Shown here piece by piece: positions 27,134 through 35,481 of a stretch of 64,000 bases of DNA. Every line of letters begins with the position of its first letter. Positions within the stretch are counted from its first letter, which is position 1. The stretch spans positions 496,001-560,000 of the forward strand of contig NC_052484.1 of the NCBI RefSeq assembly GCF_009730915.1, in the 5' to 3' direction. This DNA is from Dioscorea cayenensis subsp. rotundata (lineage: Eukaryota > Streptophyta > Magnoliopsida > Dioscoreales > Dioscoreaceae). The position numbers and the translations under genes are program-made. The notes beneath the pieces were generated by a model. The model did not search any database and was not told the DNA's origin. It worked only from the letters and a program-made list of their open reading frames with translations.

Positions 27134-27798
27134 ATATGGTATCAGAGGATTCAGAGCTATTATTTTTTCAAGATATATGTTACCTGAGGGAGTGGTAATG
27201 CGGCGAAGAGATCAAGCCAGAAGGACTTGGAATTGATATATCGACAAGCGATCTTGGAAGGGTCAATGATGAGCTCTCCTCGACCAAAAACACGGGATGA
27301 CGGAGCGACATAGGCGGTTCGGAATTTGATGAAGATGTGCATTGCATAGAAAACATCTGCTAAAGACCTTATGATAGTGAGTACCACCTCAAGTGGAGTA
27401 TCAATATTTATGCAATCAGAGCTCTGAGTTTCGGTCAAGTAGAAGAATAAAGGATCGACAAAGAGCGAAACGATGCATGCGAGGAGGAATATTTTGTTCC
27501 ATCTATGAATTATTGATCCCCGGGGGTCTAATATCTTCTTCTTTAGCTTTGCCGACGAGTAATCCTCTGAGAAGACTCTTGATAACATCTTATGTTTCAA
27601 GCTCTGCTGTTGTTTCTCAGGGTGCACCTTGTTAGATTTCGACAAAGTGAACATTGTTCTTGGTTTGGATTCAATATCATCTTCAAATCTGAAGGAAAAA
27701 CAATAAGAAATCAATGAATTATAGAATTTGAACATCAAAGAAATTAAGGAATGGAGAATCACTAACCTCATTGATCTTGAATTGGAATAAGCAGCCAT
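25062..27798 (-). CDS. Cyclic nucleotide-gated ion channel (CNGC)
   Basis: Plasma-membrane cation channel of the plant CNGC family, gated by cyclic nucleotides and calmodulin and typically passing calcium. Eight exons: 27767-27798, 27184-27688, 26854-27066, 26491-26780, 26279-26390, 25949-26185, 25444-25838, 25062-25359; 693 aa, fully open. The first transmembrane helix begins near residue 95 (IFLLACIVSLFVDPLFFYL); the pore with the plant-type GQN filter (SLGQNLSTSTH) is near 350, followed by S6. A C-linker (EEWRIKKTDTEQWMRHRQLP, then PMDLRRDIKRHLCLDLVRR) leads to the cyclic-nucleotide-binding domain (about 463-590, with GDFCGEELLTWALDP and STRTVRAISEVEAFAL). The calmodulin-binding IQ segment is FIQAAWRRHKRRR. 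The C-linker wording recalls group III members such as CNGC15, but the subgroup is tentative. Confidence 0.93.
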
Positions 27799-28313
27799 GT
27801 TGATAAATTCAGAGGCTTCTCAACCATTAAAACTCAAAGCATGCACTTGCATAACTTATTGTTGCTGTTGTTCATCAAGTATCTTGTGATATAAATTTAA
27901 TGGAATGGTACCTCATGTCACTACACCGATTTTTATTTTTAGAGGCACATTGGTAGAAGGGTTTTTTAAAAAAACACCTCTATAACTATGCATTTAATTT
28001 TCTTTATAAATCTATAGAGGGGGTTTTGTAAACCCCCTCTAATTTTTAATTAATAAAAACATAGTCACTTGCAAACTTAACTCTCCATTAATGATAATTA
28101 GTAATTTTTTAGACTAACTAATGTCTGGTCTTTACTCTCTCACACAAATGTCTTCTCATTTCTCACCAAAACCTAAATCCAACGAACCAAAATTCCCCAA
28201 AAACCCACCAGAACCAAACCCATGCTTCTTCTCCGCATCTCTCCTCGATCCATCCTTATGCCTCCCCGGCGCCGCCTCCTCTCTTCCTCCAGCCACCGCC
28301 CCCATCCTCCTCT

Positions 28314-28668
28314 GATGAAGACGAAGACGATCCCCACCTCTCCTCCCGTCACCGTCGATCCCTCCTCTCCAATGACGACCAAATCTTCTCCATCCTCCAA
28401 CAAGACAGTCTCGGCATCGACTCCCAGACCGCCCTCAACAATCTCTGGCAAAATCTCACCGCCGCCCTCGTCCATGTCGTCCTCCGCCTCATCCACTCCT
28501 CCATGACCACCACCAACAAATCCTGATCCGCCAAACTTGCCTTCAAATTCTTCACCTGGGCTTCCGATCAACCCCACTACTCCTACCCCACCCACATCTA
28601 CAATCTCACCATCAAGATCTTCGCCGACGCCGGCGAGCTCAAGAACATCCTCTCCAATAAAGTGTAAC
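28314..28668 (+). pseudogene. Fragment of a pentatricopeptide (PPR) protein gene
   Basis: In the frame starting DEDEDDPHLSS (28314), the translation runs through SLLSNDDQIFSILQQ to an in-frame TGA after TTTNKS. It then continues AKLAFKFFTWASDQPHYSY and YNLTIKIFADAGEL, wording typical of the start of plant organellar PPR proteins (the AFKFFxWA...YN motif). It ends at a stop after ILSNKV. Only the N-terminal part of such a gene is present, it is interrupted, and it sits inside the CACTA-like element, so it is best read as captured DNA. Confidence 0.6.
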
Positions 28669-30493
28669 GTAATGAGAGAGTCTGTGTGTGTGTGATTGTA
28701 TTTTTAAACATCACCATCATCACCATAATCATCTAGGGTTTCTCCAGCGTCTCTAGCATCTTAGAAGATGGCGTCCAAAATGCTCTCAGATTCCGCCATT
28801 GATGAAATGCAGCAACGCAAAGGAGAACATTGAGGTCTCTGCTTCACCGCTGATGCCACCTTCATGTCTGTGTCCGCTTCGAGGATCATTGAGGTCTCTA
28901 CCAAGCGTGTCACCATCGACGCCGCCTTCATCTCCATCTCCGATTCGAGATCATTGAGGGTCTCTGCCAGGAACTCAATGTTTCATCTCAAGTTAATCAA
29001 CTCTTACTACCAGGTTCAACGAAAAATCAATGATGGTTTCAATTTAGGGTTCTAATTTCAATTGATCTGTGATGATTTTCTTCATTGTGTTGTAGCTATT
29101 GAAGGTCTTACACTACAACGTGTCAGTGTTATTCTCAAAGGCTCTGACCAACATCAGGCCACAAATTTGTTCGAGGTTTCGACGTGTCAATGACGATCAC
29201 CGGAATCCAACTAAAAACCATGTCAGTTCATCCTAGAAAGACCATCCAGGTTCATCTCTTTCTCTGTTTCTTTGATTTTGTCCCTAATTTTAGTGTGGTT
29301 TTAAATTTGTTGTTGAATGTGGTTTTGAAATTTTTTTTTTTTGTTAATCTTCTTTGTCTTAGGTTTTATGATTTTCTGACTGTTTTTATTTAGATTTTTA
29401 TTTGCTGAAGATGCAGAGGTCTATTAGATTTTGATTTCTGTTAATTTTTATGCTAACGAGGTAATGTTTCATTTGTTGATAGTTTCACATCCTTCTTAGC
29501 TCTTATTTGTTTAAATCTTAGAACTTATAACTTCTTGTTGGGACATTCAGAAGATGTGCTTGCCATTTCTAATGCTCTTAGCCTAATTTTTTTTATATTT
29601 TGTTATTGAATATATTGGATGTTTTATTCGTTGATTGTTACACATTCTTCGCAGCTTGTTTAACTCCTACTTGGGTCGTATCATGCATGATATCAAAAAA
29701 TAGCTGTGCCCCAATGCCTCTTCCAGTGGCTGTTCTATTAGTCTTATATCAAATTATGTTCTTTAACCACTTGGTACCAAGTTGCATTCCTTAACAATTA
29801 GGAGTAGCAAATAATATATATGATTATCACTTGGGCTAGTTGATTGTATTGCGAGTAGTAAACATACTATTTCAAATCGATGTTACGAGTTCTGTGGTGC
29901 TTAGGGCTTTCATTGCATGCTTGTATACACGAAAATGCTTTTTTGAGGTTACTTGTTTTCTTTTTCTTTTTTTTTATTATCCCTTGTATAAAGGTCTTCA
30001 TTGCTTGTAGGCTAGGTAGCTATCTGCTTGGCTCTTAAAAATTTGTTTCCAAAATGTATTTAGTTTAACATATCAACAAATGCTGGCAAATTGCTCATAC
30101 TATGAGAAGAATACCTATTACTCATTAGAAATCTTCTTAATTAAAAATCATAAGAAAAGGACTTAACCAACTAAGACTTGTTTTACATTTTAGAATACAT
30201 AAAAAGAAAGAAAAGAACTGCTTTAAGTTAAATCACCTATGTGCACAATATGTTAGACACAAGTAGCATAACTTGTTTCTCCATCACTTTGGTCAATGTT
30301 TTCAAAATAATGAAAATCGATCAGAAAAAATGAACTTTAGAGAAGGTTAGCTTAACTTAAACCTTATGCCTTGTTAGTTTTTAAGATGTGCCATCATCCT
30401 GAGAGTAATATTTTCTAATTTTCCTGGTTGAGCTGCAACATCAATTTATTGATTTATGGGTTTTTTTTAATACATGACTGCAAATGGATTGAG
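28669..30493 (+). other. Unrecognised internal part of the CACTA-like element
   Basis: 28750-29000 is GC-richer and contains about three degenerate copies of a ~60-70-base phrase around ATTGAGGTCTCTGC, with an ATGGCGTCCAAAATGC start-like site at 28768 that soon meets a stop. It resembles the first exon of another host gene, but I do not recognise it. 29050-30490 is T-rich, intron-like DNA. Confidence 0.4.
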
Positions 30494-33030
30494 GCACCCA
30501 TCAAATATATCTCTTTTGCGGGGGAATCATGAAAGTAGGCAATTAACATAGGTACATTGTTATCCTAAAGTACAACTTTGTGAAACATTTATTCTCCATG
30601 TTGCATTTGTAATGTTTGTCAGGTTACCATATTTATCTTACCATTGACATCATGTGTAGGAACCAAAAGATTTAACATTATTCTTTTATTGCACTTTTTT
30701 TACTCGAGTTGTTTTGAAAAGACAAACCGTTTAAGTGTAGCTCATGATCACAGTTAAAATTATTTAATCCTATTCTAGAGCTTATAAAATAACTGATTGA
30801 CCCCTTTTCAGCCTTCTTAGCTAACTATCTTGTTATTGCTGTGTGCTTTGAAAATTGTTAATTGCCTTTCCCAATCATGTAGTGAATATTTGTTTGGTTC
30901 ATCTGTCATCCATCTTACCCTTTGTAATTTGTGGGAAAGCTTGTTAATTCAGGAAGATTTGTTGCTGATATCACATTTAAGAAACAAATTTCTTGCGTAT
31001 TATTTTTTTATTTTTTTATTCATTTTTTTATTTTTTTGCATTGTTTACATAGAGAAGAAATCTTCTGTGTGTTGCCCTGAATAAAATATTTTGCACTTTG
31101 TCGTTTTGGTGAGCAATAAGGATGAGGGGGAGGCCTGGAAAAACTATATATTTATTTCAAATATGATTTCAGAGTTCCCGAATCGCTTTACTTATAATGA
31201 ATTCTGAATTTAAATCAATTATGGTATTTACAGTGCCCTTGCTTTGAGTTATAAATCCCTTACATCAGTCTAGAAAAGAATAGGCCTTTTGTGTTTATTT
31301 TGCCATTTATTTTATAATTTACCTTTCTATAGTTGCTCGCAGCAGTGATTATGCACCTCAAAGTTCTCATACCTTTTTTGCTTGCATATTTAGTTAGCTG
31401 TTATAAGCTGCAGAAGTTTCTCTATGATATGTATACCTTAAGTGTTTGTCATCTTTTATAGGGTTTATGGTTTTTATGATGAGTACCAGAGGAAATACGG
31501 CAATGCTAATGCATGGCAATATTGTACAGATGTTTTTTACTACCTTACATTGTCAGCAATCATAGATGGAACTGTAAGACAACATTTTTTTAAACATTCT
31601 AATGAACTATGTTTTCTGTTGCAGTTTCCTTCCCTCTTGGTTGCTGTTTTATTTACTCTTATTCTTATTCTCAGTATTGATTTTTGCTTGGATTTGCAGG
31701 TTCTTTTTGTTCATGGTGGTCTTTCTCCTGATATTCGATCAATTGATCAAGTTCATTGCTTCTTATGATTTTATTCTTCATAATCAACATTTGAACCTTT
31801 AAATCTCCATATGCTAACTGGAAGCATATTTTACAATTCATTGATTTCACATTTCGATGGTAGTGCTTCTCTATAAAATGATTATCAGTTGCTAGACTCC
31901 ATCAGTGGTATAATCATGTCATAATGTAAGAATGACGTTGTGCTACATCTCCTACTTTTTTAAGATTTATGGCAATGTATTGGAAATGGTGGTTATGTGA
32001 CAGGGAGAACCAAAGTCTACAACTAAATGTTGGAAAACCTCCTTTCTGTTTTTCTGAAATCCAGTATTCTTTCTCTTTGCCATCTAGAAATCCTGCTAAT
32101 TCTCCACAAACACTATTTTCTAAGTTTAATATTGACTTGACAGAAGTAGCTTCTGGTATATAGATGTGTAACCATTTCTACTAAGTGTTTGCCATTGATG
32201 TTCGTTGCTTCTGTTTGAAATTAATTCCTTTTTTTCCTTCTTCATAGATGAGAGTTATCGACTAGAACTATGAAATTCCTCACAAGGACCCTTTTTGTGA
32301 TCTAATGTGGAGTGACCCTGATGAGATTGCAACTTGGGCAGTTAGCCCTCATGGTGCAGGATGGCTTTCGGGTCAAGGGTGGCCTCAGAGGTTTGTGTAC
32401 ATGTTCTTTGTTGTCTCCGGCTTCCTGCTTTCCTCTATGATCCGCTGCTCCTAATACAAAAGTTTACTATATTCTCATTCTGCAGTTCAACCATATAAAC
32501 AAGCTCGACCTCGTCTGCCGAGCACACCAGCTCATCCAGGAGGGTCTAAAGTACATGTTTCAAGACAAAGGCCTCGTCACTGTGAGTTATTATAAATTAC
32601 CATCCCAACTTTTTCCTCAAGAATCCCAGCCAACTAATCTTGTGATTGCTTTAATATAATTTCAAGTCTTCAAATTATTATATTTATTGGCATTCCAGGT
32701 GTGGTCTGCACCCAATCATTGCTACAGATGTGGAAATGTTGCTTCTATTCTAACCTTTAATGAGAATATGGTATGCTACTACACTACTACGATTCCCGCT
32801 ATTTCAGTCATTGTTGCTGTCTTATTTATACTCATGCACTTAACATTTAAAATGAACTTGTAAACCTTACAGTGCGCATGATTGAAATGGACTAATTAAA
32901 ATATGATCATAAACTTATAAAGTTTACCCTCTTAATAATGACAGGAAAGAGAGGTCAAATTTTTTTCACCGAAACACAGGAAAAACAACCAAATGAGAGG
33001 ACCAAGAACAGGAGTACCATAATTTTGTAT
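30494..33030 (+). pseudogene. 3' half of a PP6-type serine/threonine phosphatase catalytic gene, with introns
   Basis: Seven exon-like blocks in order with GT-AG spacing: 30494-30551 (SLLRGNHESRQLT), 31462-31573 (VYGFYDEYQRKYGNANAW), 31700-31750 (VLFVHGGLSPDIRSIDQ), 32248-32390 (CDLMWSDPDEIATWAVSPHG), 32486-32581 ([20 protein letters not shown]), 32699-32770 ([18 protein letters not shown]) and 32945-~33030 (EREVKFF, then NNQMRGPRTGVP in another frame). GNHES and HGG are PPP-family catalytic motifs, and the C-terminal wording matches plant PP6/FyPP. The N-terminal part with GDxHG and GDxVDRG was not found. It is dead: CAG has become TAG at the end of the first block, an Arg codon has become TAG in the fourth (VID-stop-NYE), the loop wording is altered (GWLSGQGWPQ), and the last block is frame-shifted. 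Retained introns mean it was copied as genomic DNA. Confidence 0.8.
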
Positions 33031-33289
33031 GAAGTCAAGGAAGCTTCATCTTCTACTTTTGGTACTGCATGCAAGGATCCAATCTTTACATCATGCAGTA
33101 AACATGTAGATTCCTCTATATTGTTGTTAGACTGACAAAACTATCATCCTATCTGATGATTTATGAATGGGAATTAGAATTCTATTTTTTACCCTTCCTT
33201 TTTTTTCTTTGTTCTTGTTTAATCTTGATGTCTTGTTTAATCTGGATGTCTTGTTGATTTTAATATTTCCTGGTAAGAGATAAAAAAAC

Positions 33290-33521
33290 CACCTTTAAAA
33301 AGCTATTGAAAAGGAAATAAAAAATTATTAACTATAGAGCCGGTTATAACCGCCTCTAATCTATTGGTGAGAGATAAAAAATTTTAGCTATAGAGGCGGT
33401 TATAACCACCTTTATAGCTATTGGAAAGGAAATAAGAAATTATTAACTATAGAAGCGGTTATAACCGCCTCTAAGCTATGGGTGAGGTATAAAAAATTAT
33501 TAGCTATATAGGCGGTTATAA
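33290..33521. repeat. Subterminal palindromic tandem repeats of the CACTA-like element
   Basis: Four successive units of about 60-65 bases contain CTATAGAGNCGGTTATAACCGCCTCTAA-type sequence, near 33335-33360, 33390-33415, 33448-33474 and 33503-33521 (cut by the gap). The core AGGCGGTTATAACCGCCT equals its own reverse complement. Dense subterminal repeats of this sort are the transposase-binding regions of CACTA elements. Confidence 0.75.
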
Positions 33522-34521
33522 NNNNNNNNNNNNNNNNNNNNNNNNNNNNNNNNNNNNNNNNNNNNNNNNNNNNNNNNNNNNNNNNNNNNNNNNNNNNNNN
33601 NNNNNNNNNNNNNNNNNNNNNNNNNNNNNNNNNNNNNNNNNNNNNNNNNNNNNNNNNNNNNNNNNNNNNNNNNNNNNNNNNNNNNNNNNNNNNNNNNNNN
33701 NNNNNNNNNNNNNNNNNNNNNNNNNNNNNNNNNNNNNNNNNNNNNNNNNNNNNNNNNNNNNNNNNNNNNNNNNNNNNNNNNNNNNNNNNNNNNNNNNNNN
33801 NNNNNNNNNNNNNNNNNNNNNNNNNNNNNNNNNNNNNNNNNNNNNNNNNNNNNNNNNNNNNNNNNNNNNNNNNNNNNNNNNNNNNNNNNNNNNNNNNNNN
33901 NNNNNNNNNNNNNNNNNNNNNNNNNNNNNNNNNNNNNNNNNNNNNNNNNNNNNNNNNNNNNNNNNNNNNNNNNNNNNNNNNNNNNNNNNNNNNNNNNNNN
34001 NNNNNNNNNNNNNNNNNNNNNNNNNNNNNNNNNNNNNNNNNNNNNNNNNNNNNNNNNNNNNNNNNNNNNNNNNNNNNNNNNNNNNNNNNNNNNNNNNNNN
34101 NNNNNNNNNNNNNNNNNNNNNNNNNNNNNNNNNNNNNNNNNNNNNNNNNNNNNNNNNNNNNNNNNNNNNNNNNNNNNNNNNNNNNNNNNNNNNNNNNNNN
34201 NNNNNNNNNNNNNNNNNNNNNNNNNNNNNNNNNNNNNNNNNNNNNNNNNNNNNNNNNNNNNNNNNNNNNNNNNNNNNNNNNNNNNNNNNNNNNNNNNNNN
34301 NNNNNNNNNNNNNNNNNNNNNNNNNNNNNNNNNNNNNNNNNNNNNNNNNNNNNNNNNNNNNNNNNNNNNNNNNNNNNNNNNNNNNNNNNNNNNNNNNNNN
34401 NNNNNNNNNNNNNNNNNNNNNNNNNNNNNNNNNNNNNNNNNNNNNNNNNNNNNNNNNNNNNNNNNNNNNNNNNNNNNNNNNNNNNNNNNNNNNNNNNNNN
34501 NNNNNNNNNNNNNNNNNNNNN
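33522..34521. other. Assembly gap of 1,000 N
   Basis: Exactly one thousand unknown bases. The round size suggests a placeholder rather than a measured distance. It hides the right end of the CACTA-like element and possibly more. Confidence 0.99.
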
Positions 34522-35481
34522 GAAGGAATTCTACACATATTTATTAGCCTTCAAATAAATTCAGGAAACCCATGATTTTTGGAGAACAACTAAACAAAAA
34601 CTTAACATGAAGCTTCAACTTGCAGCTTCAAACTCTTCTAATAATCACATATCAGGCTAGAAAAATGCAAAATTCAATCAGTCAATCAATCTTAAGAGTT
34701 TGCGCAAGAAAAAAAAAAAAACCTCCTTTTACATCAAACAAATCTCAATCTAACAATTTCGATCTGCATCTCATGATATCACTCAGTAATTAAGATATAT
34801 ATATATATATATACAGTGGTCAACAACAGTTTTCATAGCAAAAAAACAGTTAAAAAAAGAATAAAAATCCAAGTTGGAAAAAAGAAAAAAAAGTGTTGGA
34901 TCAAATCACAGCATGATAATCTCTAATTAAGGTTCTCAAAGAAAAACAAAAAGAATAGGAAAATCCAGCTTACTTGAGCACTCGATTGGAGATCCAAGAT
35001 GGTGCGAGGAGGCAAGCGAAGGATTTTTATCAGGCTTCCTTCTCCGGCATGGCAAGAACGATGCAACAAAGCCGTAATAACGAGAAGGAAGATGCAGTAG
35101 CCCTGGTCCGGCGAGGCGATCGGGTTTGGAAATAAGAAGACACATAGATACATGATAAACCAATAATTAAAATGAATAAATTATCATTTATATTGAGGTA
35201 GAAGAAAAAAATACAAAAGCTGTGGTTTATTCACTTTTATCAAATAAAAAAAATTACAGCAAATGTACAAAACAAAAACAGGACATTAAACAAAACACGA
35301 AATTATTTCATCATCATATTCATCTTCTGTGATCCTCAATATGTGATCCTTTGTGGTCTGCAGTCGACCATGACCAAACAACATGAAGATCAAGTTCTTA
35401 AATGGGAAAAACTTTGGTTTAGTCCCCACATCGCCTAATTGAGGAAGTCACGTAGCATATATGTGGGAAGCAGTCCCACCC
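34522..35481. other. Intergenic or leader sequence left of the membrane-protein gene
   Basis: 34522-34920 is AT-rich with an (AT)n run near 34795. 34975-35125 is GC-richer; on the minus strand it reads as an open stretch starting at 35153 and ending in a good donor (GCTCAA/GTAAGC at about 34973), so it may be a first exon of a minus-strand gene continuing into the gap. I do not recognise its product. A LINE-like tail (GTGGTTTATTCACTTTTATCAAA) sits near 35222. Confidence 0.35.

Follow-up and report, generated by a model that had tools for sequence, protein, structure and literature searches.

A very probable Pack-CACTA transposon of Dioscorea cayenensis subsp. rotundata with host gene pieces taken up in steps

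The window analysed here is a 64-kb stretch of a 584-Mb genome (C14:496001-560000), and an element with a transposon-like end lies in it close to a cyclic-nucleotide-gated channel gene. The putative start codon of that gene is on the minus strand at 27796-27798, 121 bp from the left end of the element, and the gene region gives Ion_trans and cNMP_binding matches. At about 34970-35140 on the minus strand, a segment of higher GC content that closes with a possible splice donor is seen by eye. It may represent a leader exon of the channel gene, in which case the element would lie in a leader intron. At about 48-57 kb on the minus strand, repeated open frames resembling aromatic amino acid lyases (PAL-like) are recognised by eye, and the open frame at 55021-56295 matches Lyase_aromatic with an E value of 2.9e-79. 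Rfam at its gathering thresholds gives 0 matches in the window.

The visible part of the element occupies 27919-33521, and its right terminus falls inside an assembly gap of exactly 1000 N (33522-34521), so that the final stretch is not visible. Its left end, on the plus strand, consists of the terminus CACTACACCGATTTTT and a subterminal region with TAGAGG...CCTCTA palindromes (27919-28164), delimited by genome matches. The sequence CACTACACC begins at 27919 in the 64-kb window, where CACTACAC by itself occurs at the chance level, once versus 0.67 expected. The leading 312 bp of the element gave at least 40 genome matches, and in 38 of 40 the match starts at the first base. Position 27919 is therefore a genuine end of the family, and the CACTA terminus read there in the first-pass annotation holds. 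The TGT at 27916-27918 is the presumed left copy of a 3-bp target duplication, judged from its sequence and from the matching duplications of sister copies.

The right subterminal region (33268-33521, plus strand) carries a palindrome-bearing 57-bp tandem array, which spans 33300-33521. The motif AGAGGNGGTT/AACCNCCTCT is found at five places in the 64 kb and all five are within the element, two near the left end (28016 and 28031) and the other three in the array on the right (33348, 33392 and 33463). With up to three mismatches, AGAGGCGGTTATAACC is seen 7 times versus 0.14 expected, and one of these extends into the gap. Subterminal direct and inverted repeats, a feature of CACTA (En/Spm) elements, are present in the element, and the earlier reading of related motifs at the left end and in tandem near the gap is borne out by the five sites and the array. 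An exact palindrome scan of viral contigs returned 0.

When the left end was locally aligned with the right array, 23 of 1000 shuffles scored at least as high as the inverted alignment and 2 of 1000 as high as the direct one, while the array tile scored 33 and the next window tile 32. This left-right alignment stands weakly above the shuffles, so we relied on the sister copies instead. Elsewhere in the window, the right terminus was matched at best in 19 of 30 or 11 of 15 bases as raw counts.

The gapless sister copies L010, L011 and L012 are 5858, 6476 and 6100 bp long, and all three terminate in GGTGTAGTG. Beyond the point equivalent to the gap they have about 259, 556 and 551 more bases, respectively, ending in TGTAGTG, and these lengths are approximate because the array is repetitive. 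The stretch hidden in the window is about 0.26-0.56 kb, and in the gapless sisters it consists of array and end sequence. Thus, of the CACTA...TAGTG inverted ends, the left one is in the window and the right one is in the three sisters. Their flanks are GTG/GTG, AAA/AAA and TCT/TCT, matching 3-bp duplications in every case, so both the inverted terminus and the 3-bp duplication that the first-pass annotation proposed to look for beyond the gap occur in all three gapless copies with the same cargo.

The target site duplication of CACTA (En/Spm) elements is 3 bp long. We fetched 14 further members (L015-L028) in addition to L014, which had been fetched earlier. Both ends were located by pattern in 5 of these 14, and 4 of the 5 have matching 3-bp flanks, the flanks of L027 (TAG/TGG) being the ones that do not match. 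The TGTAGTG of L013 (AAT/TAT) and that of L014 (ATG/TGC) have no 3-bp duplication, and judging from the flanks the true ends of these two members may be damaged or located elsewhere. Passages of PMC8903248 give 5-nt duplications for the CACTA elements of its set.

As at window 33522-34521, the tandem array at the right end of the copy L009 runs into a gap of 1000 N, and the gaps in these two near-identical copies probably reflect assembly difficulty. The right flanks of L010 and L012 contain a copia-like retrotransposon translation by eye, and these two copies seem to be inserted within retrotransposons.

The same internal arrangement is found at five places, namely the window, L009 (C19), L010 (C5), L011 (C9) and L012 (C16), so the cargo has been mobilised as part of the element. 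The distances among the five range from 0.47% for the window and L009, its nearest copy (25 of 5369 sites), to 8.6% for L010 and L011. The window-C19 split would date to roughly 0.2 million years ago only on the assumption of about 1.3e-8 substitutions per site per year. A search for other genome copies, as proposed with the first reading, found at least seven places that carry the PP6 (phosphatase) piece with element sequence, including the internally deleted L015. In another of the PP6-piece loci, L038, the piece is shortened with the same right junction, and a left end was looked for there and none was found.

That an assembly artefact or a segmental duplication placed the PPR and PP6 pieces side by side has a negligible probability. 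The 1000-N gap does adjoin the region and the C19 copy is gapped at the corresponding place, but the internal arrangement recurs unchanged in five copies at separate places, and three of these have matching 3-bp flanks.

Two oddities concern single members. Near the window-equivalent position 30048, L011 has about 382 bp extra that are unique among the five aligned copies and whose overlapping matches point to tandem repetition of the adjoining element sequence. L010 and L020 show repeated small letter rearrangements compared with their sister copies, with the CG and CHG counts of L010 shifted, and these are perhaps base-calling or polishing errors.

The first cargo piece (28165-28648, plus strand) is a captured 5′ part of a PPR gene, 86% identical to the C2 locus L041 and with an in-frame stop in the window copy. 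The fragment itself has no PPR match in Pfam, NCBIfam or PDB, and its PPR identity comes from L041, which carries PPR repeats downstream of the matching part (PPR_2, E 2.6e-46). The coding sequence of L041 is spread over several reading frames, so it may be a pseudogene, a donor paralog or a gene with sequence errors. The 16 matches of the PPR search comprise 7 element copies, L041, the C4 locus L042 and 7 weak ones.

The second piece (28710-28814, plus strand) is a captured leader or start-codon-like piece, 87% identical to the unnamed C4 locus L042. Upstream of the PPR piece in L013, at L013:1396-1495, lies a second C4-like piece (L042:27-127, 78%), as if the PPR piece had been inserted into an older and larger C4 capture. 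We rejected 28768-29250 as one further captured gene, as the family shares 28819-29404 and the C4 locus matches 28710-28814 only.

Next to the C4 piece is a core block of 586 bp (28819-29404, plus strand), which stands between the PPR and PP6 pieces and is common to members without either of them (L014 and L016-L024, full or partial). It is also matched in L015, fully or partially as in the others, and is not matched in L025-L028. The core may have been captured itself at an early time.

The block that follows (29454-30497, plus strand) is a captured, apparently intronic piece of an unnamed gene, 83-91% identical to L043 on C24 and 71-77% to L044 on C17. A search with window 29405-30490 gave 20 matches, which were 9 to element copies or L013, 2 on C24, 2 at C17:377 kb, 2 at C4:576 kb and 5 short ones of 51-56 bp.

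The last piece (30496-33267, plus strand) is the captured genomic 3′ part of a gene for the PP6 catalytic subunit, with its introns. Its plus-strand exons are a partial one at 30496-30557 (residues about 99-119) and those at 31461-31573 (about 119-155), 31700-31750 (about 156-172), 32248-32393 (about 173-219), 32486-32581 (about 220-251) and 32699-32770 (about 252-275), followed by the last exon at 32945-33032. In the window copy the 32248-32393 exon has an in-frame stop and a frameshift and the last exon a broken frame. In the PDB, PP2A-type catalytic subunits are matched by four exons in the right order, with one weak match (E 0.0012), and a plant PP6 query matches the window at residues 99-302.

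The parent-like gene is L037 on C6, which has apparently intact PP6 exons for residues 1 to 303 versus a plant PP6 sequence. It is 89.3% identical to window 30496-33237 with introns included. By eye the alignment reaches 33267, where the PP6 gene departs. The PP6 search of the genome gave 13 matches: 7 element copies, L037, L040 on C9 (a PP6-like locus with a stop), 3 in L039 on C18 (another PP6-like locus) and 1 short one on C18.

The likely parents of the PPR and PP6 pieces, sought as the first-pass annotation had suggested, thus lie on separate contigs (C2 and C6), and the places hit by both searches are element copies. As far as the gapless sisters and this genome allow, neither outcome that the annotation named as refuting was observed. 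Of the two gene fragments and the direct PPR-to-PP6 joint in that annotation, the PPR and PP6 pieces within a Pack-CACTA stand. The captured pieces are at least four rather than two, and the C4 piece, the core and the C24/C17 piece lie between the supposed partners. The parent-like loci are 7-14% away from the captured pieces, distances at which they may be paralogs rather than the donors themselves.

A Pfam scan of 14 pieces of the element, each an open frame or an exon, found no transposase domain, and the element is apparently non-autonomous. With its ends, its copies and its cargo, it is very probably a gene-capturing (Pack-CACTA) transposon of the CACTA (En/Spm) type, whose pieces were taken up stepwise and moved as a unit.

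The cargo is decaying. The PP6 exons of the window have stops and frameshifts, and the other copies share some of them and differ in others. Exon divergence is not below intron divergence in any of the 10 copy pairs, and it is significantly above it in four pairs, all involving L010. Since L010 inflates the distances and looks error-prone, we limit the claim to that the exons are not better conserved. Versus the donor gene L037, exon divergence is below intron divergence in 4 of 5 copies, which fits a constrained donor branch and is also compatible with weak early constraint in the element.

The C/T differences also have a context. In 9 of 10 pairs they amount to 0.15-0.34 at CG and CHG sites versus 0.035-0.084 at CHH sites, and the tenth pair, the window and L009, has few changes (CG 8/173, CHG 0/265, CHH 8/1503). 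Changes from donor C to element T at CHG exceed the reverse in all five copies. CHH losses are also above gains, by less, and at CG sites L010 and L011 show about as many changes one way as the other. Enrichment of C/T differences at CG and CHG is the footprint expected of methylated, silenced plant transposons. The broken exons, their lack of extra conservation and the substitution pattern together fit a silenced hitch-hiking sequence and not a selected chimeric protein, and silencing of the element appears probable from this footprint.

These patterns bear on whether the chimera is expressed and useful, either as a spliced PPR/core/PP6 transcript or as small RNAs regulating the parent genes. 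The splice-site dinucleotides of the window PP6 introns look retained by eye, the window copy lies upstream of the channel gene, 121 bp from its putative start codon, and chimeric spliced transcripts are described for soybean Tgm-Express1 in passages of PMC1947982. But the frames are broken, the exons diverge as much as or more than the introns among the copies, and the substitutions fit CG/CHG methylation. We consider such a use quite improbable, and the sequence evidence argues against a protein function of the chimera.

The order of events can be read from L013 (C15), which holds the left end, the PPR piece, the core and the C24/C17 piece, and in which tblastn found no PP6. L013 diverges from the window at 30501, and beyond this point its C24/C17 piece continues in gene order. 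A simple loss of PP6 would not restore the C24/C17 order, so the simplest course is that the C24/C17 piece was in the element before PP6 was added. The joint sequences are GGGGCACCCAT in L013, ATACCCGT in the PP6 gene, ATACCCAT in its paralog and GAGGCACCCAT in the window. They have a short common stretch at the PP6 joint, with the PP6 gene joining within ACCC(A/G)T.

A different cargo is found in other members. In L021 (C9) and L024 (C16), the space between the left end and the core is taken by a sugar-transporter exon (Sugar_tr, E 7.2e-23 in L021 and 1.7e-24 in L024) with adjoining AT-rich, intron-like DNA, and L020 and L023 are without this piece. In L026, an Ovate-like piece follows the left end at 683-1282 (Pfam Ovate, E 6.1e-5, 23.4 bits versus a cut-off of 25), and the core was looked for in this member and not found.

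The scaffold sequence GAGAACATTGAGGTCTCTGC runs uninterrupted, with small differences, in seven members (L017-L020, L022, L023 and the window), so the uninterrupted state at the sugar-transporter site is likely ancestral. It is interrupted in L021 and L024, where about 6-7 bases are replaced. This count was made by eye, the aligner having scattered the bases concerned. L014 carries another short sequence at this site.

Capture by fusion, in which two CACTA elements flanking a gene piece lose their facing ends and move as one, is the mechanism favoured for Arabidopsis Pack-CACTA in the relevant passages of PMC8903248, and part of the review PMC13317346 retells it. The PP6 piece lies between left-type and right-type element sequence, as fusion predicts. 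Against it, the sugar-transporter piece sits in an otherwise continuous scaffold with only about 6-7 bases replaced, so that fusion would require two elements truncated at nearly the same scaffold base. Moreover, no remnants of inner termini were found in the stretches aligned at both PP6 junctions. The PP6 junctions alone do not decide between patching and fusion, and the sugar-transporter comparison favours patching. We regard fusion as unlikely here, although it keeps a fair part of the weight.

Abortive gap repair is reportedly a model of Rubin and Levy. A further reading, to which we give somewhat under even odds, is that the zone from the left end to the core is prone to capture by gap repair or template switching rather than by fusion, with the PPR and C4 pieces patched in in one branch and the sugar-transporter exon in another. 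Rubin and Levy are cited in PMC8978399 for a repair-type mechanism, and "abortive gap repair" is used once in that paper. If the capture-prone zone is true, it would resolve CACTA capture at the base level, with few scaffold bases replaced in the one readable case.

Mechanistically, the ends and the subterminal arrays would be bound and moved by a transposase supplied in trans. The host gene pieces entered as genomic DNA in distinct steps, and patch-like repair or template switching at breaks within the element is the likeliest route. Once complete, the package of the PPR piece, C4 piece, core, C24/C17 piece and PP6 piece transposed as a unit, and it is now decaying, with at least seven places holding a full or shortened form.

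The window element is very probably a Pack-CACTA of the Tgm-Express kind. Tgm-Express1, the closest of the described cases compared, is a 5.7-kb CACTA element in the soybean F3H gene that carries exon and intron sequence from five unrelated genes (PMC1947982). The two are alike in being CACTA elements of similar size with several unrelated host gene pieces including introns, while the host genes differ and the window family has members with varied cargo and uninterrupted sites. The Pack-CACTA of Arabidopsis, rice and maize, according to passages of PMC8903248, are non-autonomous, as the window element seems to be, and likewise have CACTA ends and coding DNA, and multi-locus cargo is reported for those of maize. 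They differ in that the with/without comparison of the window family points to patch-like insertion for one cargo. Chenopodium CACTA elements also have captured gene fragments, but in the portions of PMC8978399 concerned these stand beside the elements' own coding domains, whereas the window element is without a transposase in the scanned pieces.

The kind of element is already known, and what is added here is that relatives with and without the pieces show the insertion points. Gene annotators are warned that at least seven PP6-like places in this genome are transposon cargo. Gene uptake by CACTA elements is still debated, and this one genome offers ancestral-like and derived members for one cargo and parent-like loci for others, so that the junctions are directly readable.
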